In this document: positions 3,710-14,238 of the stretch, piece by piece
Position numbering within the stretch: position 1 is the first letter of the stretch
Layout: each line of letters starts with the position of its first letter
Assembly: GCA_015064625.1 (NCBI GenBank)
Contig: SVRW01000001.1
Coordinates: 196,884-260,883 of the forward strand
DNA from: Oscillospiraceae bacterium
Lineage (GTDB): Bacteria; Bacillota; Clostridia; Oscillospirales; CAG-382
Length of the DNA: 64,000 nt
Reading direction: 5' to 3'
The notes under the pieces: generated by a model
Database searches by the model: none
What the model was told of the DNA's origin: nothing
What the model saw: only the letters and a program-made list of their open reading frames with translations
Program-made: the position numbers and the translations under genes

Positions 3710-5128
3710 ATGAAAAAACATTTATCCTTACTCCTTGCATTTTTAATGCTTGTTTCGATGTTCGCTCTCACATCATGTGGCGAAAACTCATCTACTACAA
3801 CTGCTGATTTCGTTGTTCCCGAAAACGGTTATGACGGAAGCGAAGTTACAATCACATTCTATCACACAATGGGACAAAATCTCCGCGATGTTCTCGATAT
3901 TTATATCAAAGAATTTAACGAGCTTTATCCCAAAATTAAAATCGTTCACGAACAAGTAGGCGGTTATGATGACGTTCGCAGCCAGATAAGCACACAGATC
4001 AACGTTGGCAAACAGCCTAATATTGCTTATTGTTATCCTGACCACGTTGCTCTTTATAACCTTGCAAAAGCTGTTGCAACACTTGATGGTCTTATCGATA
4101 GCCAAATCACCGTAACAAGAGCGGATGGCACAACAGAAATTCTCGGTCTTACCGCTGAACAGAAAGCAGATTTCATTGAAGGCTATTACAAAGAAGGTGC
4201 AGCTTTTGGTGACGGCTTAATGTATAGCATGCCTTTGTCCAAATCCACAGAAGTACTTTACTACAACAAGACTTTCTTCGAAGCTAACAATCTCAGCGTT
4301 CCAAAGACATGGGACGAAATGGAAGCTCTCTGTGCAAAGATTCTTGAAATTGATCCAAAATCAATTCCTCTCGGATATGATAGTGAAGCAAACTGGTTTA
4401 TAACTATGTGCGAACAGTACGGATCACCTTATACAAGCGCAACAGGCGAAAAATATTTGTTCAACAATGACAAAAATATTGAATTCGTTACAAGATTCAG
4501 AGATTGGTATCAAAAAGGATATGTTACAACACAAACTCTTTACGGTGCTTACACTTCAGGATTGTTTACCGAAACAGTTAATTCCAGATGCTATATGTGC
4601 ATTGGTTCTTCCGCAGGTGCTGCACACCAGATTCCTAAAAAGGACGCTGAAGGAAACTACCCTTTTGAAGTAGGAATTGCTACAGTTCCTCAAATTGATG
4701 CTTCTAACCCCAAGGTAATTTCTCAGGGTCCCAGCCTCTGCATATTTAAAAAGAACAATGCTCAGGAAGTTGTTGCATCATGGCTTTTCGTAAAATTCCT
4801 TACAACAAAAGTTGAATTTCAAGCTGAATTCTCCATGGTTTCTGGTTACGTCCCTGTTATAAAGTCCGTTAGCCAGAACGAGGCATACAAAAAATTCATT
4901 GACACTGCCAACGGTCATGGAAACCTTCCCGCTCTCTCTGCAAAAGTTTGTCTTGAGCAGGAATCTGCATACTACACCTCCCCTGCATTCAACGGTTCTT
5001 CCGTTGCCAGAGATGAAGTTGGCACTCTCCTTACCAAATGTCTCTCGGGTAATGATGGAGGCGATACAGCAGCTTTTATAAAAAAATCATTCGAAGAAGC
5101 CATTAAACAATGCAAAGCAAAAGGCTAA
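3710..5128 (+). CDS. ABC transporter substrate-binding lipoprotein (family 1)
   Basis: A 472-aa surface lipoprotein that delivers substrate to the permeases upstream. The signal peptide ends in lipobox LTSC, with lipidated Cys23. The mature part has the family-1 solute-binding layout: an early VTITFYHTMG strand, a QIN...KQPNIAYCYPDH segment, LYYNKTFFEANNLSVPKTWDEM in the middle, and a late ASWLFVKFLTT helix. These patterns resemble UgpB/MalE-like proteins. The start ATG follows GAAAGGACG. The gene is next to two nuclease-associated lipoproteins, so a substrate from nucleic-acid breakdown is conceivable. That is inference: CUT1 systems usually carry sugars or glycerol phosphate esters. Confidence 0.92.
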   Translation: MKKHLSLLLAFLMLVSMFALTSCGENSSTTTADFVVPENGYDGSEVTITFYHTMGQNLRDVLDIYIKEFNELYPKIKIVHEQVGGYDDVRSQISTQINVGKQPNIAYCYPDHVALYNLAKAVATLDGLIDSQITVTRADGTTEILGLTAEQKADFIEGYYKEGAAFGDGLMYSMPLSKSTEVLYYNKTFFEANNLSVPKTWDEMEALCAKILEIDPKSIPLGYDSEANWFITMCEQYGSPYTSATGEKYLFNNDKNIEFVTRFRDWYQKGYVTTQTLYGAYTSGLFTETVNSRCYMCIGSSAGAAHQIPKKDAEGNYPFEVGIATVPQIDASNPKVISQGPSLCIFKKNNAQEVVASWLFVKFLTTKVEFQAEFSMVSGYVPVIKSVSQNEAYKKFIDTANGHGNLPALSAKVCLEQESAYYTSPAFNGSSVARDEVGTLLTKCLSGNDGGDTAAFIKKSFEEAIKQCKAKG

Positions 5129-5175
5129 TGTTTCAAAATTTTATACAAAACTATAATATAATAAAAGACAGAGTT

Positions 5176-6516
5176 ATGAAAAACAAAACTAAACTGATTT
5201 CATTATTACTGATTTTATGTTTGATGACTGCTATCCTCCTCACTTCCTGTGATGGGGAGGATGCCAGCACTATATCCTCAGAGCTATCAAACATTGATTA
5301 CGCACAGTCTGTAAAGCTTGATCTCAATTCAAAGGAAACTTTAAAATTCGAAGCGAAAGTCAAGCTTTTTGTAGACGGTGACACAACTCACTTTTACGTT
5401 GACAAAAGAATTCTTGAATCGGGAGTTCTGAAGGCAAGATATATTGCTATCAACACTCCAGAGTCTACAGGAAAAATTGAAGAATACGGCAAAGCCGCAT
5501 CAAACTACACCAAAGAAGCTCTTTCAAAGGCAACTTCCATATACCTTGAATCCGATGATGGCAAGCTCAACGCTGACTCAACGGGGGACAGATATTTGGT
5601 TTGGGTATGGTACAAAACCGCTGAAAATGAAGAATACAGAAATCTTAATATTGAAATTCTTCAGAACGGTTTGGCAATCGCTTCTTCTTCTGCCAACAAC
5701 AAATATGGAACAGTATGTGTTGACGCCATTAACCAAGCTAAAGCAAATAAGCTGAACGTCCATTCTGGAGTAAAAGATCCGGACTTCTATTACGGCGAAG
5801 CAGTTGAACTTACGCTTAAAGAATTAAGATGCAACATTGAAGATTATAATGGTGTTAAAGTTGCTTTCACTGGTATAATCACCAAAAACGAAAGCAGCAG
5901 CGTTTATATGGAAGCATATGATGCTGAGACCGATATGTATTACGGTATTTCCGTATACTACGGATACAATCTGTCGGGTGACGGACTTGAAATTATGTCC
6001 GTTGGAAACGAATCAAGAATTGTAGGCACTGTTACTTACTACGAAGCAGGCGGAACTTATCAGGTTTCAGGTGTTTCATACAGAATGATGAATCCCAAAG
6101 ACCCCAACAACATTCAGAAAATCAGCTCTGATAACAAACCTGCATACGTTCCTACAACAGCAGAAAAATTCACAAACGGAAAAGTTGAAATAACAACAGA
6201 TGATGAGAAAAAGTCCTTTGACTATGCAGGACTTGCTTTGAACACTTCCATTTCCATGGAAAACCTTAAAGTTAAAAGCATTTACACAACAACGTCAGAG
6301 GAAAGCTCTTCAAAAGGTGCAATGACACTTACCTGCGAATGCGATGGAATTGAAGTTGACGTCAGAACAACTGTTCTTACCGATGATGACGGCAAGATCA
6401 TTACTGCAGAAGCATACGAAGGCAAAACAATTAACGTTAAAGGAATTGTTGATTATTTTAGCGGTTCTTACCAGATCAAAGTTTTATCTGCAAAGGATAT
6501 AACTATACTCAACTAA
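5176..6516 (+). CDS. Surface lipoprotein with a thermonuclease (SNase-like) domain and OB-fold-like repeats
   Basis: The start is taken at ATG 5176 because it gives a clean lipoprotein signal peptide with lipobox LTSC (Cys25); an upstream in-frame start at 5110 would overlap the previous gene and bury the signal. Residues about 58-200 match staphylococcal nuclease: VDGDT (Asp67, Asp69), KARYIAINTPE (Arg88, Thr94, Glu96) and GDRYLVWVW (Arg139). The aspartate that normally precedes Thr-Pro-Glu is Asn93, a change at a calcium-ligand position. Residues about 208-320 and 350-446 look like OB-fold modules. Bacillus YhcR similarly combines OB folds with a thermonuclease domain. Likely role: cleavage of DNA or RNA at the cell surface. 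Confidence 0.82.
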   Translation: MKNKTKLISLLLILCLMTAILLTSCDGEDASTISSELSNIDYAQSVKLDLNSKETLKFEAKVKLFVDGDTTHFYVDKRILESGVLKARYIAINTPESTGKIEEYGKAASNYTKEALSKATSIYLESDDGKLNADSTGDRYLVWVWYKTAENEEYRNLNIEILQNGLAIASSSANNKYGTVCVDAINQAKANKLNVHSGVKDPDFYYGEAVELTLKELRCNIEDYNGVKVAFTGIITKNESSSVYMEAYDAETDMYYGISVYYGYNLSGDGLEIMSVGNESRIVGTVTYYEAGGTYQVSGVSYRMMNPKDPNNIQKISSDNKPAYVPTTAEKFTNGKVEITTDDEKKSFDYAGLALNTSISMENLKVKSIYTTTSEESSSKGAMTLTCECDGIEVDVRTTVLTDDDGKIITAEAYEGKTINVKGIVDYFSGSYQIKVLSAKDITILN

Positions 6517-6535
6517 ACGAAGGAGATTAACTACG

Positions 6536-8842
6536 ATGAAAAAAATACTTTCATTCGTTCTTATGCTTGTTATGGTTTTGACGATGGCAAGCTGTGGCGG
6601 AAATGATTCTTCATCTACGGATGCAAGCAATGGCGCATCCTCATCCAATGACCTTGAAAGCGCAAAAGCATTTTTGAAAAATATGTATCTTGACGCAGCT
6701 ACATCTACTGCAGGAGATTTCACACGTACAAACGTTGTTATGGTTGCAGGCGTTTCCTATAAAATTACCTGGACCGTTGAAGTAGCTGATAACGCAGTTA
6801 CCATTGAAAAAGGCGAAACAGAAGATACAATCAAAATCAACGTTGTAAAGCCCGCTGCTGACATTGCTTACGTTCTCAAAGCTACAATTGCAGCTCCCAA
6901 CGGAAGCACAACAGAGCTTACATACAACTACGTAATTCCAGCATACAAGCATATGACTTTTGCTGAATACATGGCAGCTGAAAAAGGCGCACCTGTTACA
7001 GTTAAAGGTGTCGTTTCTGCTATAGTTGCAAAATCCAAAGGTAACTCCAACAACAGCATTTACGTTCAGGACACAGATGGCGGTTACTATATTTACGGCA
7101 TGGAGAAAGACCCTGTTACCGACCTCAAACTTGAAATTGGTATGACCGTTGAATCTTCTGGTGAAAAAGATATCTACAACGGCACTCACGAAATTAAATC
7201 TGCTACAGTTGAAATTCTTGATTCCAACAAGGCAGAAGTTAAAGCTATCGATCTCACAGAAACATTCAAATCCGCAAAAGACCTGAAGGACAACGCCCTT
7301 GTTGGAATTCAAGGTGCTCTCGTTACAATTAAAGGCGTTGAAATTATAGGAATAAGTGATTCCAATGATTCATACTATATGTTCAAATTGGGCGAGCTTG
7401 AAACATACGTTAGAATTTCTTCATCCTCATGCCCTATTAACTCTGACGAACAGAAAACATTTATTGACACTTACAAAGCAAACCTTTCAAAATCCGCAAC
7501 GGTTACTGGTATTGTAAGCGTTTATAACGGCAACTTCTATCTTATTCCCGCAACTGTTGATGCTTATTCTGAATTTGCAGAAATCAGCCGTTCTGACGCA
7601 GACAAAGTTGCCGCTGAAAAAGAAAACGTTTCTGTTCCAGAAAAATTTGCAGTTGACAAAGAAGTTGAACTTGCCCTCAACGGCAAAACCTTTACAGACG
7701 TTAAAATTGAATGGACATCCGATAACGCAGCTGCCACAATTAAAGACGGCAAACTTATAGTTAAACTCACAGATAAAGAACTTACAGTTAAAATCACAGC
7801 TACTCTCACATGCGGCGAAGCAACAGATAAAGTTGAATTCACAGTAGCTCTCGGTCAGAAAGGAAAAGAAGAAAAGCCTGAAGGAACAGCTTATATGTTT
7901 GCTCTTGCTCAGGTAAAAATCGGCAAAAACCTTTATTTCACAGGCGAAATGAAAGGCAATTTCCTTGCAACTTCTGAAAATGCAAAAGATGCTGTTAAGG
8001 TTTATATTGAAGAAGTTACAGGCGGCGTAAGATTCTACTTCATGAAAGACGGCGAAAGAACATACATTGACGTTCATGAATACACAGCAGGCAAAGCAGG
8101 TGTAAGACTTACAACTGAACCCACTTGCGTATTCACAAAGAACAACGAAATCGGAACTTACATCACAAACGTTGCAGGTGCTGATTACTACCTTGGCACA
8201 TACAGCACGTTCAATACAATAAGCGCATCCAAAACCTCTTACATCACAGGTGAAAATGCATCCAAAATCGGTGTTGAGCAGTTCATTGCAGGTCTCCATA
8301 CATCAGAGCTTCCCAAAATTGAAACAAAACCCGATGACAACACCTCCACAGACCCTGCACCTAAAGACGAACTTAACATTGTTTCCGCTCCCAAAGCAGA
8401 TACTGCGTACAAATTCGTCCTCAATAAAATCTCAGAAGGAACTGTTCTCTATTACACAGGTGAAATGAGTAGTTTCTACCTTGCAACTTCAACAGATAAA
8501 GCTGAAGCTGCTGACGTTTATCTTGAAGCAACAGAAGGCGGATTTTACCTCTACACTAAAAATGGCTCAGCAAAAAACTACATTAACATTGTAGAACGTG
8601 AAGATGCTCCAGGCAAGGTTACAATCAAAGTTAACGAAACTGCTACCACAGTTTACAGATTTGATTCTGAACTTAAAATTTTGATTACTACAATAACATT
8701 TGCTGATGCTTCCAACGGAGATTTCTACCTTGGCACATACGACTCTTATAAAACAATGAGTCCTTCGAAGACTTCCTATATTTCTGGTGACAACGCTTCC
8801 AAAATTGGTGTTTCACAGTTCCCAGCTTATCTTGTAGCATAA
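6536..8842 (+). CDS. Multidomain surface lipoprotein with Ig-like, OB-like and duplicated C-terminal modules
   Basis: A 768-aa lipoprotein (signal peptide ending TMASC, Cys20) starting 19 bases after the nuclease gene, with AAGGAG ahead of it. After a Ser-rich linker come an Ig-like region (about 40-140), an OB-fold-like pair (about 145-350, including GAPVTVKGVVSAIV and SATVTGIVSVYNGNFYL) and a second atypical Ig-like region (about 355-445). Then two copies of a roughly 150-residue module occupy about 455-610 and 625-768. Both copies carry YFTGEM/YYTGEM, FLATS/YLATS, DYYLGTYS/DFYLGTYD and a shared SKTSYI-GxNASKIGV ending. No catalytic motif is recognised. Its position suggests a binding or scaffold role for the surface nuclease machinery; function unknown. 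Confidence 0.8.
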   Translation: MKKILSFVLMLVMVLTMASCGGNDSSSTDASNGASSSNDLESAKAFLKNMYLDAATSTAGDFTRTNVVMVAGVSYKITWTVEVADNAVTIEKGETEDTIKINVVKPAADIAYVLKATIAAPNGSTTELTYNYVIPAYKHMTFAEYMAAEKGAPVTVKGVVSAIVAKSKGNSNNSIYVQDTDGGYYIYGMEKDPVTDLKLEIGMTVESSGEKDIYNGTHEIKSATVEILDSNKAEVKAIDLTETFKSAKDLKDNALVGIQGALVTIKGVEIIGISDSNDSYYMFKLGELETYVRISSSSCPINSDEQKTFIDTYKANLSKSATVTGIVSVYNGNFYLIPATVDAYSEFAEISRSDADKVAAEKENVSVPEKFAVDKEVELALNGKTFTDVKIEWTSDNAAATIKDGKLIVKLTDKELTVKITATLTCGEATDKVEFTVALGQKGKEEKPEGTAYMFALAQVKIGKNLYFTGEMKGNFLATSENAKDAVKVYIEEVTGGVRFYFMKDGERTYIDVHEYTAGKAGVRLTTEPTCVFTKNNEIGTYITNVAGADYYLGTYSTFNTISASKTSYITGENASKIGVEQFIAGLHTSELPKIETKPDDNTSTDPAPKDELNIVSAPKADTAYKFVLNKISEGTVLYYTGEMSSFYLATSTDKAEAADVYLEATEGGFYLYTKNGSAKNYINIVEREDAPGKVTIKVNETATTVYRFDSELKILITTITFADASNGDFYLGTYDSYKTMSPSKTSYISGDNASKIGVSQFPAYLVA

Positions 8843-8906
8843 TTTTTTGATTGTGATACTTCATTGTACCACCACAATACCAAATTGTTGATTCAATTGT
8901 TTAAAG

Positions 8907-8932
8907 GAGCAGGATGTCACTTCATCCTGCTC
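8907..8932 (+). terminator. Hairpin after the 768-aa lipoprotein gene (weak terminator candidate)
   Basis: GAGCAGGATG pairs perfectly with CATCCTGCTC across a 6-base loop, about 65 bases after the stop codon. There is no clear T run behind it, so it may be a transcript-stabilising hairpin rather than an intrinsic terminator. The remaining 115 bases before the nuclease gene contain no promoter I can defend. Confidence 0.45.
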
Positions 8933-9047: not shown

Positions 9048-11531
9048 ATGAAAAACACTTCAAAAAGAATATACTTAATAGTTTTAACCTTATGCTTTTT
9101 AATTTCAGCTCTCGTGTGCTCCGTATATGCATCAAACGAGCTGTCATTAAAAGAAAATAGCAATCTTTCTATTGGCGACTATGAAGGCGTTAAGACTGTT
9201 TCAGGGGTTTCAGAGAAAACGTCTGTAAACGTTCTTTTATCACATTTTAATTCACAAGACGAAATTACCGTAAAGACAGATGGAAGTATTATTTCAGGCA
9301 GTGCAATCGTTGGCACTGGTACTTCCCTTTCGTTGAATTCTGACATTGCGTACGTAATTGTTCTTGGTGATACTAACGGAGACGGAACTATAACGTCCAC
9401 GGACTATCTCCAAGTAAGAAGACATATTTTAGGAAACTTCACTCTTGAAGGCGTATTTTTTGCAGCTGCTGATACAAACAGTAATGCAAGTATTGACTCA
9501 ACAGATTATCTTCAGATAAGAAGACATTTGCTTGGAGAATATTCTCTTTATTCAGAAAAAACGGAAGGGCTTCCAGCAGATTCTTCAAAAGATCCGTCTG
9601 CAGATTCATCCGAAGAATCTTCTGAAGGTTCTTCCCAAGTTACATACGTAATAAACAAAAATTCAAAGAAAATACATCTTTCTACTTGCAGCGGGGCTGC
9701 ATCCATATCTGACGCAAATAAGCAGACGTACACAGGAGATATTTCCGATTTAACTGCACAAGGATATACAACCTGCGGAATATGTCTTGCCGCCGGAACA
9801 CCTAACGGGTCTGAAAGCACAAGTCCTTCAGTAAGTGAAATCCCACCATATTCTGGTAGCGCTTATTGTGTAATAAACGATAACGTTCCAACCTTCAGCG
9901 CATCCGAGCTTACAACAAAGGGTTACGAAAAATACAGTGAACTTGACAGCCTTGGTCGTTGTGGAGTTGCCATCGCATCATGTGGAACCGACACTATGCC
10001 CACAGGTGACAGAGGAAGCATAAGCTCAATTAAACCATCAGGCTGGGTTCAGGCAACATATGATTGTGTTTCTGGAGGGTCACTTTATAACAGAAGCCAT
10101 TTAATTGCATGGTCTCTTTGCGGTGAGGATGCAAACGAAAAGAACCTTGTCACTGGAACAACCTATATGAACCAGGGAACTATGGATCAATTTGAATCAA
10201 TGGTTCGTGACTACATCAACGAAACAGGAAATCACGTTGCTTACAGAGTAACTCCCATATTTGAAGGTAATAACCTTGTATGTAACGGAGTTCAAATGGA
10301 AGCATATTCCGTTGAGGATAAAGGTGAGGGCATTTGCTTCAACGTTTTCTGTTACAACGTTCAGCCTGGAGTTGTTATTGATTATGCTACAGGAAATAGC
10401 CATCTTGAAAGTTCCCAAGATTCCTCAAATGATTCAACTCCAACAATAACATCAAAATACGTTATCAACAAAAGCTCTAAAAAGGTTCACCTTTCAACCT
10501 GCAGTTCTGTTTCTAAAATTGCTGCAGCTAACATCCAACAATACGACGGAAATCTTGATGAGCTTCTGAACCAAGGTTATACTGCTTGTACTACTTGTAT
10601 TGGAAAGGAATCATCTGATTCTAATACTTCTTCCGAAGAACCTTCATCAGAAGAACCTTCTTCTGAAGAATCTTCCGATGAAGTTACAGGTGCTACTTAT
10701 ATTATTAACAGCAAAACAAAAAAGGTTCACCTTTCTACTTGCAGCGGGGCTGCTTCTATTTCAGCAGCTAACAAGGTTGAATACAACGGTTCTCTTGACG
10801 AACTTCTGAACCAAGGTTACACTGCTTGTAAAACCTGTCTTGCTGATAGTTCATCCGACAATAGCTCTTCCGAAGAACCCTCTTCTGAAGAATCTTCCGA
10901 TGAAGTTACAGGTGCTACTTATATTATTAACAGCAAAACAAAAAAGGTTCACCTTTCAACTTGCAGCGGAGCTGCTTCTATTTCAGCCGCTAACAAGGTT
11001 GAATACAACGGTTCTCTTGACGAGCTTCTGAACCAAGGTTACACTGCTTGTAAAACCTGTCTTGCTGATAGCTCGCCTAATGATAGCTCGTCGGACAATA
11101 GCTCTTCCGAAGAACCTTCTTCCGAAGAATCTTCCACTGAGGTTACAGGTGCTACTTATATTATAAACAGTAACACCAAAAAGGTTCACCTTTCAACTTG
11201 TAGCGGGGCTGCTTCTATTTCAGCAGCTAACAAGGTTGAATACAACGGTTCTCTTGACGAGCTTCTGAACCAAGGTTACACTGCTTGTAAAACATGTCTT
11301 GCTGATAGCTCATCTAATGATAGCTCGTCAGACAATAGTTCTTCCGAAGAGCCTTCCACAGAAGTTATTGGGACTACATATATTCTCAATACAAAAACTA
11401 AAAAAATTCACGCCAGTGGCTGTGGTTCAGTCAAAACCATTTCCGAAGCAAACAAAGGTGAATATACAGGTTCTATAGATGATCTAATTGCCCAGGGATA
11501 TACAGCTTGCGGAAGCTGTAAACCAAGTTGA
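9048..11531 (+). CDS. Secreted dockerin-bearing EndA/Sda-type nuclease with six Ada-like zinc modules
   Basis: 827 aa with an N-terminal signal peptide lacking a lipobox. Residues about 105-165 form a dockerin: loop 1 DTNGDGTITSTD with the full calcium set, loop 2 DTNSNASIDSTD degenerate. Residues about 270-450 form a DNA/RNA non-specific endonuclease of the streptococcal DNase type, with DRGSIS, the NRSHLIAW motif (catalytic His351) and DANEKNLVTGT. Six about 48-residue modules (starting near 200, 471, 551, 625, 704 and 778) carry HxxxC...CxxC, as in the zinc site of Ada-type domains with His replacing the first Cys. They are joined by Ser/Glu/Pro linkers. Ada zinc domains contact DNA, so the repeats may bind the substrate; that is inference. 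Confidence 0.88.
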   Translation: MKNTSKRIYLIVLTLCFLISALVCSVYASNELSLKENSNLSIGDYEGVKTVSGVSEKTSVNVLLSHFNSQDEITVKTDGSIISGSAIVGTGTSLSLNSDIAYVIVLGDTNGDGTITSTDYLQVRRHILGNFTLEGVFFAAADTNSNASIDSTDYLQIRRHLLGEYSLYSEKTEGLPADSSKDPSADSSEESSEGSSQVTYVINKNSKKIHLSTCSGAASISDANKQTYTGDISDLTAQGYTTCGICLAAGTPNGSESTSPSVSEIPPYSGSAYCVINDNVPTFSASELTTKGYEKYSELDSLGRCGVAIASCGTDTMPTGDRGSISSIKPSGWVQATYDCVSGGSLYNRSHLIAWSLCGEDANEKNLVTGTTYMNQGTMDQFESMVRDYINETGNHVAYRVTPIFEGNNLVCNGVQMEAYSVEDKGEGICFNVFCYNVQPGVVIDYATGNSHLESSQDSSNDSTPTITSKYVINKSSKKVHLSTCSSVSKIAAANIQQYDGNLDELLNQGYTACTTCIGKESSDSNTSSEEPSSEEPSSEESSDEVTGATYIINSKTKKVHLSTCSGAASISAANKVEYNGSLDELLNQGYTACKTCLADSSSDNSSSEEPSSEESSDEVTGATYIINSKTKKVHLSTCSGAASISAANKVEYNGSLDELLNQGYTACKTCLADSSPNDSSSDNSSSEEPSSEESSTEVTGATYIINSNTKKVHLSTCSGAASISAANKVEYNGSLDELLNQGYTACKTCLADSSSNDSSSDNSSSEEPSTEVIGTTYILNTKTKKIHASGCGSVKTISEANKGEYTGSIDDLIAQGYTACGSCKPS
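10698..11306 (+). repeat. Three near-identical in-frame repeats within the nuclease gene
   Basis: The third, fourth and fifth zinc modules with their Ser/Glu linkers are almost identical at the DNA level. Unit starts are at about 10698, 10920 and 11157 (222- and 237-base spacing). Differences are mostly silent or lie in the linker, where SSDNSSSEEP-type blocks are added or lost. Such conservation points to recent duplication or gene conversion, and copy number may vary between strains or be collapsed in assemblies. Confidence 0.9.
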
Positions 11532-11550: not shown

Positions 11551-11587
11551 TCGGACAGACTTTAAAAAGTCTGTCCGAAATTTTATT
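11551..11587. terminator. Bidirectional terminator between the nuclease gene and surE
   Basis: TCGGACAGACT pairs with AGTCTGTCCGA (11 bp, extendable to 13) around an A-rich loop, followed by AATTTTATTT on the plus strand and preceded by an A run that serves as the T run on the minus strand. It lies exactly between two convergent genes. Confidence 0.85.
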
Positions 11588-11598
11588 TAAATATATGA

Positions 11599-12327
11599 TT
11601 AAATGGTTTCGTTAAGAACCTGAAGTTCTTCGTACAATTCGCTGTTCGTTCTTTCCAGCTTCATAGGGGTTACGGAAACAAATCCATGCATAACAGCATC
11701 AGTATCGAAAACGTTTGTTCCGCTGTCTTTATATATACATTTTCCTGTAGGTAAAAACATATCGTTACCTTGTTCCACGTAAACGTCGCAGAAATATCTT
11801 CCGCCCTGACGGGTTATAAAGAATTTTTCTGCACCACCAGGAACGTTGATATTATATATATTGTTTTTATCTAAAAGCTTATTTTTCTCAACGTACTCCC
11901 AAATGGTATCAAGCATTGACAATGCGTAATCAATAGATTCGGGATCGGTTGAAATTGCAATAGCCTTTGCGCCAAGATTCGCACCCTCAAACATTGCACC
12001 CGCTGTACCTGAATAGTTTATATCCCTGCCAACGTTAAAGCCTTTGTTTATACCAGATATAACAAGGTCAAAATTTTTCTTCATTCCAAGAAAAGCAAAT
12101 CTGACACAATCCGCAGGAGTTGAATCCAAACTATAGCCTTCGAAGCCTTCTTCTTCCCAAAGTTTCTTTACTTCAAAAGGTTTAAAAATCTCTATGCTAT
12201 GACTTTTACCGCTTTGCTCAAATTTAGGAGCAACAACTGTAACTTCACCAAAACGTCTTGCCCATTTCGCAAGAGGTAATATAGCTTTTGCATTTATGCT
12301 GTCGTCATTTGTGATTAAAATTCTCAT
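11599..12327 (-). CDS. surE: 5'/3'-nucleotidase SurE
   Basis: 242 aa. SurE is a cytoplasmic metal-dependent phosphatase that dephosphorylates 5'- and 3'-nucleoside monophosphates. The N-terminal MRILITNDDS carries the acidic metal motif (Asp8, Asp9); the usual glycine of NDDG is Ser10. ISGINKGFNVGRDINYSGT followed by AGAMFEGANLG is the second hallmark, and LDSTPADCVRFA the third. The ATG at 12327 overlaps the stop of the upstream phosphoesterase gene (ATGA), indicating translational coupling; a GTG two codons earlier is less likely. Together with the two DHH genes it forms a nucleotide-salvage operon converging on the secreted nuclease. Confidence 0.93.
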   Translation of the reverse strand: MRILITNDDSINAKAILPLAKWARRFGEVTVVAPKFEQSGKSHSIEIFKPFEVKKLWEEEGFEGYSLDSTPADCVRFAFLGMKKNFDLVISGINKGFNVGRDINYSGTAGAMFEGANLGAKAIAISTDPESIDYALSMLDTIWEYVEKNKLLDKNNIYNINVPGGAEKFFITRQGGRYFCDVYVEQGNDMFLPTGKCIYKDSGTNVFDTDAVMHGFVSVTPMKLERTNSELYEELQVLNETI

Positions 12328-13301
12328 AACCACCCCTCGTTATTTTCCTTATACTCTTTAAGCTTGGCATCAGCATCAGCAATAAGTGAATTAACTTCTT
12401 CCATATTATATACTGTTGCTCCTGATGCGCAGGCATGACCTCCGCCTCTGTACTTTTCACCTATATCATTAACAGTTACAAACCGTGAACGCAAACGTAC
12501 ACGTATGGAATCGTCATTTTCAATAAAAGCCAGCCATATAAGGCTTCCCTTTATGGATTCCATAAGGGAAACAACGCTTCCTGCTTTTTCATGGGTAAGA
12601 TTGAATTCTTCCTGCATCGCTTTATCAACAATGATATAAGCGACACCATTTTCTGTAAGACTCATTTTATTATAAACGTGTGCAGAAAACTTCAGCTCAG
12701 AAAACTCCTTCAGATAAAGATTTGAATACATTACATCAACGTTTATTCCAACATCCAGAAGCATACCTGCAAGTCTCATTGTATCTCCAGACACTGAGCT
12801 ATAACGGAATCTTCCTGAATCTGTCACCATTCCAGTATAGATATAAGTTGCAGCTGTGCTGTTTATTTTCAGTTCATCCTTGAATTCATTATAAAAAGCG
12901 GCAACCATCTCTGCAGCAGAAGAACGCTCCTCTTCAACTAAATTTATATCTCCGAAATTTTCACGGGGAATATGATGGTCGAACTTTATAATTTCCTTAC
13001 AAAGCTTGAATTTCTGGTTTGAAACTCTATCCTCGTTTGCTGTATCAACAACGATACCCAAGGCATCTTTATACAAAGAATCATCTATATCTTCATCTTC
13101 CCCACCCATAAAAGAAAGATAATCAGAATAGTCACAGTTTATAAGATATATTTCCTTTTCAGGATAAGTGAGGGTCAATATCTCTTTCAATCCTTTTGTT
13201 GAACCTACGGCATCACCGTCAGGTCGAATATGTCTGAATATTATTATTCTGTTATACTCTTTTATTTTTTCAAAAACCTGCTTCATTATTCCAACATCCA
13301 T
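12324..13301 (-). CDS. DHH/DHHA1 phosphoesterase, NrnA-like (oligoribonuclease / pAp phosphatase)
   Basis: 325 aa with the NrnA architecture: FRHIRPDGDAVGS (His24, Asp28, Asp30), VVDTAN (Asp86), KFDHH (Asp108-His110), TDSGRFRY, and a C-terminal DHHA1 domain ending RGGGHACASGA. NrnA enzymes hydrolyse 2- to 5-mer RNA or DNA and 3'-phosphoadenosine 5'-phosphate in the cytoplasm. The start follows GGAGGA. It overlaps surE by 4 bases and is separated from a paralogous gene by one base, so all three are one operon. Related enzymes degrade cyclic-dinucleotide-derived pGpG or pApA, so a signalling role is an alternative. Confidence 0.9.
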   Translation of the reverse strand: MDVGIMKQVFEKIKEYNRIIIFRHIRPDGDAVGSTKGLKEILTLTYPEKEIYLINCDYSDYLSFMGGEDEDIDDSLYKDALGIVVDTANEDRVSNQKFKLCKEIIKFDHHIPRENFGDINLVEEERSSAAEMVAAFYNEFKDELKINSTAATYIYTGMVTDSGRFRYSSVSGDTMRLAGMLLDVGINVDVMYSNLYLKEFSELKFSAHVYNKMSLTENGVAYIIVDKAMQEEFNLTHEKAGSVVSLMESIKGSLIWLAFIENDDSIRVRLRSRFVTVNDIGEKYRGGGHACASGATVYNMEEVNSLIADADAKLKEYKENNEGWL

Positions 13302-13302
13302 T

Positions 13303-14238
13303 TTATTCCTCCGTAATTTTATTCAAATCATCAAGCATCATCATAGCTTCTTCGCGGTTTTTCAACGTTGCTCCGCTTGCTTTTGCGTGACCGCCACCAC
13401 CGTATTTAACAGCGACAGGGTTAATATTGTATTTACTTGATCTTATTTCACAAAGTACACTGTCTTCTGTTTCGGTAAAGTTTACCCAAATATCAACACC
13501 TTTAATATCGGACATTGTTGCAACCATACCTCTCGATATTGAAAAAATGTCAACTCCAAAGGATTTTGCCTCTTCTTTTTCTGTATATATGAAAGCTACG
13601 TTCTTTTCTGTGAATTGAATTTTCAGAACGAACTGCGCTCTCAATCTTATGAAAGCAAAATCATCTGAATAAAGGTTCTTATAAATATCATTTGTAGAAA
13701 ATTCCTGTTTTGTCAAAAAAGATGCAAGTGCGAATGTTCGCGAATTAGTCGAATCATAACGAAAACGTCCCGAATCCGTAACCATTCCCGTATATATAGC
13801 TTTTGCGGCTTTGGAATTGAGCTTTAAGCAAGTTTCTCTTGCGAATTCTGCAATCATTCCGCAACAGCTTTCAAACGTTGTATCTGTTATTTCAATATCA
13901 CAAATTTCCTCAACGAAAATATGATGGTCAATTCTAATAGTTTTTTCAGCAAGAGCATATCTGCTATCGCTTATAAGGGACTTGGCGGAAGTATCAAGAA
14001 CGAAAGCCAAAGACCCATCATACGCGCTGTCTTGTATATCGTCCATTGGATCATCTGCCATAAAAGCATATCTCTCCGTCGTATCTCCAACAACGAAAAT
14101 TTCTTTTTCTGGGAAATTTTCCTCAAGGATATATTTAAGACCAAGCTGACTTCCCAAAGCATCACCATCAGGTTTCGTGTGACGGTGAATTATTATTTTT
14201 TTATACTTTTTTATTTCTTCCAATACTTTTTCAAACAT
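13303..14238 (-). CDS. DHH/DHHA1 phosphoesterase, second NrnA-like paralogue
   Basis: 311 aa, first gene of the minus-strand operon. Metal-binding motifs are complete: HRHTKPDGDALGS (His20, Asp24, Asp26), VLDTS (Asp82), RIDHH (Asp104-His106), VTDSGRFRY (Asp155), and GGGGHAKASGA near the C-terminus for substrate binding. The start ATG has AGGAGA upstream. Clearly homologous to the next gene, but the middle and C-terminal thirds have diverged, suggesting an old duplication with separated substrates (for example nanoRNA versus pAp or dinucleotides). No convincing promoter is visible in the 100 bases upstream on this strand. Confidence 0.9.
   Translation of the reverse strand: MFEKVLEEIKKYKKIIIHRHTKPDGDALGSQLGLKYILEENFPEKEIFVVGDTTERYAFMADDPMDDIQDSAYDGSLAFVLDTSAKSLISDSRYALAEKTIRIDHHIFVEEICDIEITDTTFESCCGMIAEFARETCLKLNSKAAKAIYTGMVTDSGRFRYDSTNSRTFALASFLTKQEFSTNDIYKNLYSDDFAFIRLRAQFVLKIQFTEKNVAFIYTEKEEAKSFGVDIFSISRGMVATMSDIKGVDIWVNFTETEDSVLCEIRSSKYNINPVAVKYGGGGHAKASGATLKNREEAMMMLDDLNKITEE

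Follow-up and report, generated by a model that had tools for sequence, protein, structure and literature searches.

Six Ada-fold modules with His at the methyl-acceptor position on a secreted dockerin-borne EndA-type nuclease: a possible nucleic-acid tether

A gene at positions 9048-11531 of the window (the whole stretch of 64,000 nucleotides from an Oscillospiraceae bacterium that was analysed) raises the question of why a secreted nuclease should carry six copies of a small domain that resembles the zinc domain of the DNA-repair protein Ada. The original prediction had described a single secreted protein with six Ada-type zinc modules, a dockerin and an EndA-like nuclease, and had suggested that the modules hold the nuclease on DNA. 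The open reading frame, motifs and alignment, together with the Pfam and structure matches, bore out every element of this architecture, and its features are as follows.

9048-11531, forward strand: whole gene for a secreted dockerin/EndA-type nuclease with six Ada-fold modules (827 aa, ATG start)
9048-9134, forward strand: signal peptide (hydrophobic N-terminus ending in ...SVYA, read by eye from the translation)
9363-9533, forward strand: dockerin type I with two F-hand-like calcium loops (aa 106-162; Pfam PF00404 Dockerin_1, E 3.3e-12)
9645-9785, forward strand: Ada-fold module 1, N-terminal to the nuclease (aa 200-246; motif, alignment)
9837-10385, forward strand: EndA/NucA/Sda1-type nuclease domain (Pfam match at aa 290-420)
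10458-10598, forward strand: Ada-fold module 2 (aa 471-517; motif, alignment)
10599-10697, forward strand: acidic Ser/Glu/Pro linker with a charge of -9 by charge count, the first of four that link modules 2-6
10698-10838, forward strand: Ada-fold module 3, the modelled copy (aa 551-597; motif, structure model)
10920-11060, forward strand: Ada-fold module 4, identical in protein to module 3 (aa 625-671; motif, alignment)
11157-11297, forward strand: Ada-fold module 5 (aa 704-750; motif, alignment)
11379-11519, forward strand: Ada-fold module 6, C-terminal (aa 778-824; motif, tree)

The nuclease domain matched Endonuclea_NS_2 (PF13930) with an E-value of 5e-20, and comparison with the PDB by sequence and by model showed that it resembles the NucA, EndA and Sda1 structures with the catalytic His and Asn retained. 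Alignment with relatives placed R349, H351 (in the motif YNRSH) and N375 in invariant columns, and E383 was also conserved. A model of the nuclease with module 2 had a pLDDT of 92.3 and again NucA, EndA and Sda1 as best matches, while the linker between the two domains was of low confidence. By family score, fold and catalytic residues, the domain is classed as an EndA-type DNA/RNA non-specific endonuclease. Neither an HTH nor a methyltransferase domain appeared in the Pfam scan of the protein. In the alignment, its signal peptide was without a lipobox Cys and most single-module relatives had a lipobox-like [LV]xGC.

The pattern H-x3-C ... C-x2-C was present in 6/6 modules, one ahead of the nuclease and five behind it. 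The alignment showed 19 invariant columns common to all six, so the modules are homologous and a chance zinc-like spacing was ruled out. Modules 3, 4 and 5 had 98-100% protein identity and 94-97% DNA identity, and a 237-bp tandem repeat spans their region at the DNA level, which is read as a recent tandem duplication; the exact copy number rests on a 44-contig assembly in which collapse or expansion of repeats could alter the count. Modules 1, 2 and 6 had 49-68% identity to the remaining modules, and module 6 was closest in the tree to the single-copy C-terminal modules of EndA relatives. For the Pfam family Ada_Zn_binding (PF02805, cut-off 23), the whole protein reached a summed 37.2 bits with no single module above the cut-off; in the genome search, single modules scored 13-17 bits.

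The comparison of a predicted module structure with the Ada zinc domain, named in the original prediction as its check, agreed with an Ada-type fold. A model of module 3, built with AlphaFold2 on an alignment of 77 rows that combined modules of the own genome with those of others, had a mean pLDDT of 92.7, and a Foldseek search of the PDB gave three E. coli N-Ada entries as the top matches (1u8b, 1zgw and 1wpk with TM scores of 0.77, 0.73 and 0.66 and probabilities of 1.00, 0.93 and 0.66), followed by a next match with a probability of 0.07. The E-values for N-Ada were modest (0.07-0.8), as expected at 51 residues, but since all three top matches agree on Ada the assignment of the modelled module to the N-Ada fold, as a bead of about 50 residues, is regarded as secure. 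A direct search of PDB sequences with the module profile gave chance matches only, which leaves the model as the basis of the fold match. The four ligand positions are spaced as in Ada (x3, about 27-29, x2) and are His-Cys3, not Cys4; each module is predicted to hold zinc through this set.

The position of the methyl-acceptor Cys38 of Ada was His in 111/111 related modules scored, which excluded alkylation repair. Because the acceptor is replaced in every copy, the premise of the original prediction that Ada zinc domains contact DNA is not simply transferable to these modules. In Ada, R45 and R71 contact bases, and loss of the charge of Cys38 makes DNA binding about a hundred times tighter (PMC4437013). 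Among about 117 aligned modules, the R45 position was K/R in 0% and the R71 position in 18%. The window modules each had a net charge of +1 to +2, where the Ada core has +6. For the arm formed by aa 447-827 it was -25, owing to its Ser/Glu/Pro linkers. These charges point against strong DNA binding. The family has basic residues of its own: two Lys directly before the zinc His (K/R in 95% and 98% of copies) and the position after a conserved Asn (K/R in 88%). By analogy with methylation in Ada, the change of Cys38 to His should cut the negative charge of the zinc site.

Samples of 60 (relatives), 245 (order) and 391 (class) genomes, which overlap and include about 600 distinct genomes, were searched for the module, and it was found in 22/60, 81/245 and 64/391 genomes at the thresholds used. 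More than one match per open frame was not found outside the own genome of the window in any of the three samples, and module-bearing frames there were at most 639 aa long, save one of 1716 aa in the 60-genome sample. Two modules were found in one protein (L102) by the same search as for the others, and a second, weaker module was seen by eye in another (L053). The classified set comprised 80 loci from named genomes and 22 from relatives, giving 101 distinct module proteins outside the own genome; the 80 loci had been found with a query made from own-genome modules, so they represent nearest relatives and not an even sample. An EndA domain was present in 63/101, a ComEC-type metallo-beta-lactamase (MBL) domain in 22/101 and neither in 16/101, and the module was C-terminal in 100/101. 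Overall, a search for the architecture in other genomes, also proposed at the outset, showed that the module is common in Clostridia and nearly always single and C-terminal, with arrays in the own genome only among the approximately 600 examined.

Most of the 16 carriers without either enzyme domain were built from an anchor, either a lipoprotein or a membrane segment, with a stalk of low complexity and the module. Proteins of this kind, with an anchor, a stalk and one C-terminal H-C3 module, were seen at L043, L045, L085, L098, L111, L115, L116, L120, L125, L137 and other loci; no recognised enzyme domain was found in them, and L116 and L125 had a DUF4236 domain. At L118 (3446-6150), two adjoining genes each end in a module, one encoding an EndA nuclease and the other an anchored protein with a proline/threonine stalk. 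No conserved competence locus was found beside module genes in other genomes; the families recognised among 94 flanking proteins were housekeeping ones, none of which occurred in more than three members.

The own genome had 13 modules in four proteins: six in the window protein and five, one and one elsewhere. One of the single modules is at the C-terminus of a second EndA-type nuclease without a dockerin (L024). This paralogue and the nuclease of the window had 60% identity over 270 aa. The remaining modules are carried by two adjoining genes for dockerin alpha-amylases with CBM26, as follows.

L023:3990-8018, contig C44: dockerin alpha-amylase with three CBM26 stretches and five Ada-fold modules
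L023:8329-12972, contig C44: dockerin alpha-amylase with seven CBM26 stretches and one Ada-fold module

These two amylases ruled out that the array is exclusive to DNA enzymes. In addition, the genome encodes 37 dockerins. The search at the genome level gave six cohesin-like matches, three of them above the cut-off, and among four proteins rescanned at the protein level one was above the Pfam cut-off (L025, 26.7 bits); the few cohesins of this genome are divergent. In a further protein (L029:1985-2968, contig C37), a weak cohesin-like domain, which Pfam did not confirm at the protein level, is followed by a Ser/Glu stalk and, at the C-terminus, a membrane segment; this protein is a possible surface anchor for dockerin proteins.

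Upstream of the nuclease gene and on the same strand are genes for an ABC transporter, a staphylococcal-nuclease-type lipoprotein and another lipoprotein. Two neighbouring features were as follows.

5110-6516, forward strand: staphylococcal-nuclease-type lipoprotein (Pfam SNase, E 1.3e-9; thermonuclease chains in the PDB)
11551-11578, no strand assigned: terminator-like hairpin common to the nuclease gene and the convergent surE-like gene (bidirectional)

Within 5110-8842, the SNase-type lipoprotein gene is closely followed by that of a further lipoprotein (768 aa), which has an aBig_2 domain and, at its C-terminus, two repeats that resemble each other. An OB-fold reading of this ORF (6536-8842) was unsupported, with Pfam giving aBig_2 only and no PDB match. 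Between it and the nuclease gene, at 8906-8931, lies an inverted repeat that is nearly perfect (GAGCAGGATG...CATCCTGCTC) and lacks a clear T tract. Downstream and convergent, 11599-14238 holds a SurE-like gene and two adjoining DHH-type (NrnA-like) genes, the second of which was assigned by eye. The SNase lipoprotein is probably part of a nucleic-acid-degrading neighbourhood, and the downstream group is a possible nucleotide salvage neighbourhood. This setting suits extracellular breakdown and salvage of nucleic acid and has no direct bearing on the modules.

The reading that we prefer, tentatively and at somewhat less than an even chance, is that the array in the window protein is specific to its lineage and made of a widespread Ada-fold bead without the acceptor, which tethers a dockerin-borne nuclease to nucleic acid. 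A chromosomal gene for an EndA-type nuclease may have been duplicated. One copy (L024) would have remained an apparent lipoprotein with a single C-terminal module; in the other, the lipid anchor would have been exchanged for a dockerin, a module gained ahead of the nuclease and the rear module multiplied into a flexible five-bead arm, in the order of steps that we infer. Once secreted, the enzyme probably docks on a cohesin of the extracellular complex of the cell, which is favoured by the 37 dockerins and by the cohesins, of which one exceeded the Pfam cut-off at the protein level and the others were weaker. With His at the Cys38 position, no methyl group would be taken there, and the site would have one negative charge less than Cys4; the His-Cys3 site would thus resemble that of Ada once methylation has switched it 'on' for DNA binding. 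The beads would then act as weak multivalent ligand-binding tips that bind nucleic acid non-specifically through the conserved Lys pair beside the zinc site, and could raise the local substrate concentration, and presumably the activity, of the docked nuclease.

Nucleic acid is the single likeliest ligand of the modules, at a probability that falls a little short of even. It is favoured because 85/101 module proteins outside the own genome have an EndA nuclease domain or a ComEC-type MBL domain, a figure that counts proteins and not independent fusions, as the 63 EndA carriers may stem from one or a few ancient fusions. The near-invariant family-specific basic residues, the charge effect at the acceptor position likened to methylated Ada, and the resemblance of the neighbourhood to nucleic-acid catabolism (SNase upstream, SurE-like and DHH/DHHA1 downstream) favour the same ligand. 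In most of the 16 non-enzyme carriers, the module is at the far end of a stalk anchored in the membrane, which favours a capture tip. The beta-lactamase-like domain of ComEC is a DNA nuclease, the activity of which is raised by fused OB, ComEA or Sac7d DNA-binding domains (PMC12455585), and this speeding of a nuclease by a fused DNA-binding domain favours the tether. That part of the original proposal, an arm that keeps the nuclease on its substrate, consequently has an experimental precedent, while the missing R45 and R71, the weak positive charge, the acidic arm and the array on an amylase go against it. The five-fold array on one dockerin amylase and the single module on another weaken a DNA ligand above all, as it makes no obvious sense there; the loss of the Ada arginines, the charges of module and arm, and the housekeeping genes found beside module genes elsewhere in place of a competence locus weaken it further.

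The same amylases are the starting point for a second explanation, a general bead for adhesion to matrix or surface with a ligand common outside the cell (a cell-wall polymer, mucin or a particle surface) that would be useful to any docked hydrolase. The copy numbers in the own genome favour it, with five and one on the two dockerin amylases and six on the dockerin nuclease while the non-dockerin nuclease has only one. In the tree, the amylase modules formed a clade of their own apart from the window modules (support 0.958), which argues that the nuclease and an amylase gene amplified their modules independently, and proteins with anchor, stalk and module but no recognised enzyme exist. However, this bead has no known candidate ligand, the amylases already have their CBM26 stretches for binding starch, a second cell-wall anchor seems redundant on the many single-module carriers that look like lipoproteins, and the enzyme-bearing carriers outside the own genome are almost all of DNA-nuclease types. 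It is a serious competitor to nucleic-acid tethering, and on the whole doubtful.

Zinc beads without any ligand, which would stiffen or protect the acidic linkers or end-cap secreted proteins and drift in number by repeat recombination, would account for the near-identical modules 3-5 within their tandem repeat, as slippage yields, for a low-confidence linker beside a confident bead in the model and for a module charge close to neutral. A spacer would not need the 88-99% conservation, over many genera and carriers, of N6, K10, K11, N27 and K/R28, which need not be structural; a single C-terminal module is kept in many families, and a cap leaves the stalk proteins that carry nothing else unexplained. 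This explanation is improbable. Finally, a functional alkyl-phosphotriester acceptor moved outside the cell for Ada-like repair or sensing has the Ada fold in its favour and next to no chance of being correct, as the uniform His refutes methyl acceptance at the Cys38 position and the protein is secreted and without HTH or methyltransferase domains.

Nucleic-acid tethering can also be put more widely: the H-C3 module would be a bead, widespread in Clostridia, that binds DNA outside the cell. The Cys-to-His change would lock it in the post-methylation charge state of Ada; it would give secreted nucleases, ComEC-like MBL enzymes and bare surface stalks a capture tip, and it is arrayed here on enzymes of a dockerin complex, starch enzymes included. 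In this full form the claim is rather unlikely. If the beads do bind nucleic acid, a DNA-repair switch domain would have become a permanently 'on' extracellular DNA grip in many gut Clostridia. This would tie the scavenging or uptake of DNA to display on the surface and, in the present genome, to a complex like an amylosome. With another ligand, the family would be a common, uncharacterised ligand-binding module of secreted Clostridia enzymes. Under either reading the label that databases give, 'metal binding domain of Ada', is misleading on function, and with about 50 residues the bead is small enough for its ligand to be tested directly.

In a literature search that covered few subscription papers, no description of a secreted H-C3 Ada-fold module or of such a dockerin nuclease was found. 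Public genomes certainly contain single-module nucleases of this type; the parts were known before, and what is new is the array, the combination with a dockerin and the sharing with amylases. The amylosome of Ruminococcus bromii (PMC5814915) is similar, by architecture alone, in its dockerin-borne GH13 enzymes with CBM26 in a Clostridia genome, but the GH13 enzyme table of that paper has no Ada-fold modules and the word nuclease is absent from it. The N-terminal zinc domain of E. coli Ada (PF02805) shares the fold and the spacing of the four zinc ligands with the modules, which differ in having His at Cys38, in the loss of Arg45 and mostly of Arg71 and in being far less basic; their proteins have no HTH, are secreted and, here, arrayed. 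The streptococcal DNA-entry nucleases and streptodornases EndA, NucA and Sda1 (PF13930) are alike in sequence, fold and catalytic His and Asn, while the window protein has a dockerin instead of a membrane anchor and six modules in addition. Secreted ComEC-type MBL-fold proteins (L096, L128) have the same C-terminal H-C3 module, single and on another catalytic domain. The EndA-type lipoproteins of Clostridia (L060, L063 and L024 of the own genome) combine the nuclease with a C-terminal H-C3 module as the window protein does, but with one module, mostly a lipobox and no dockerin.
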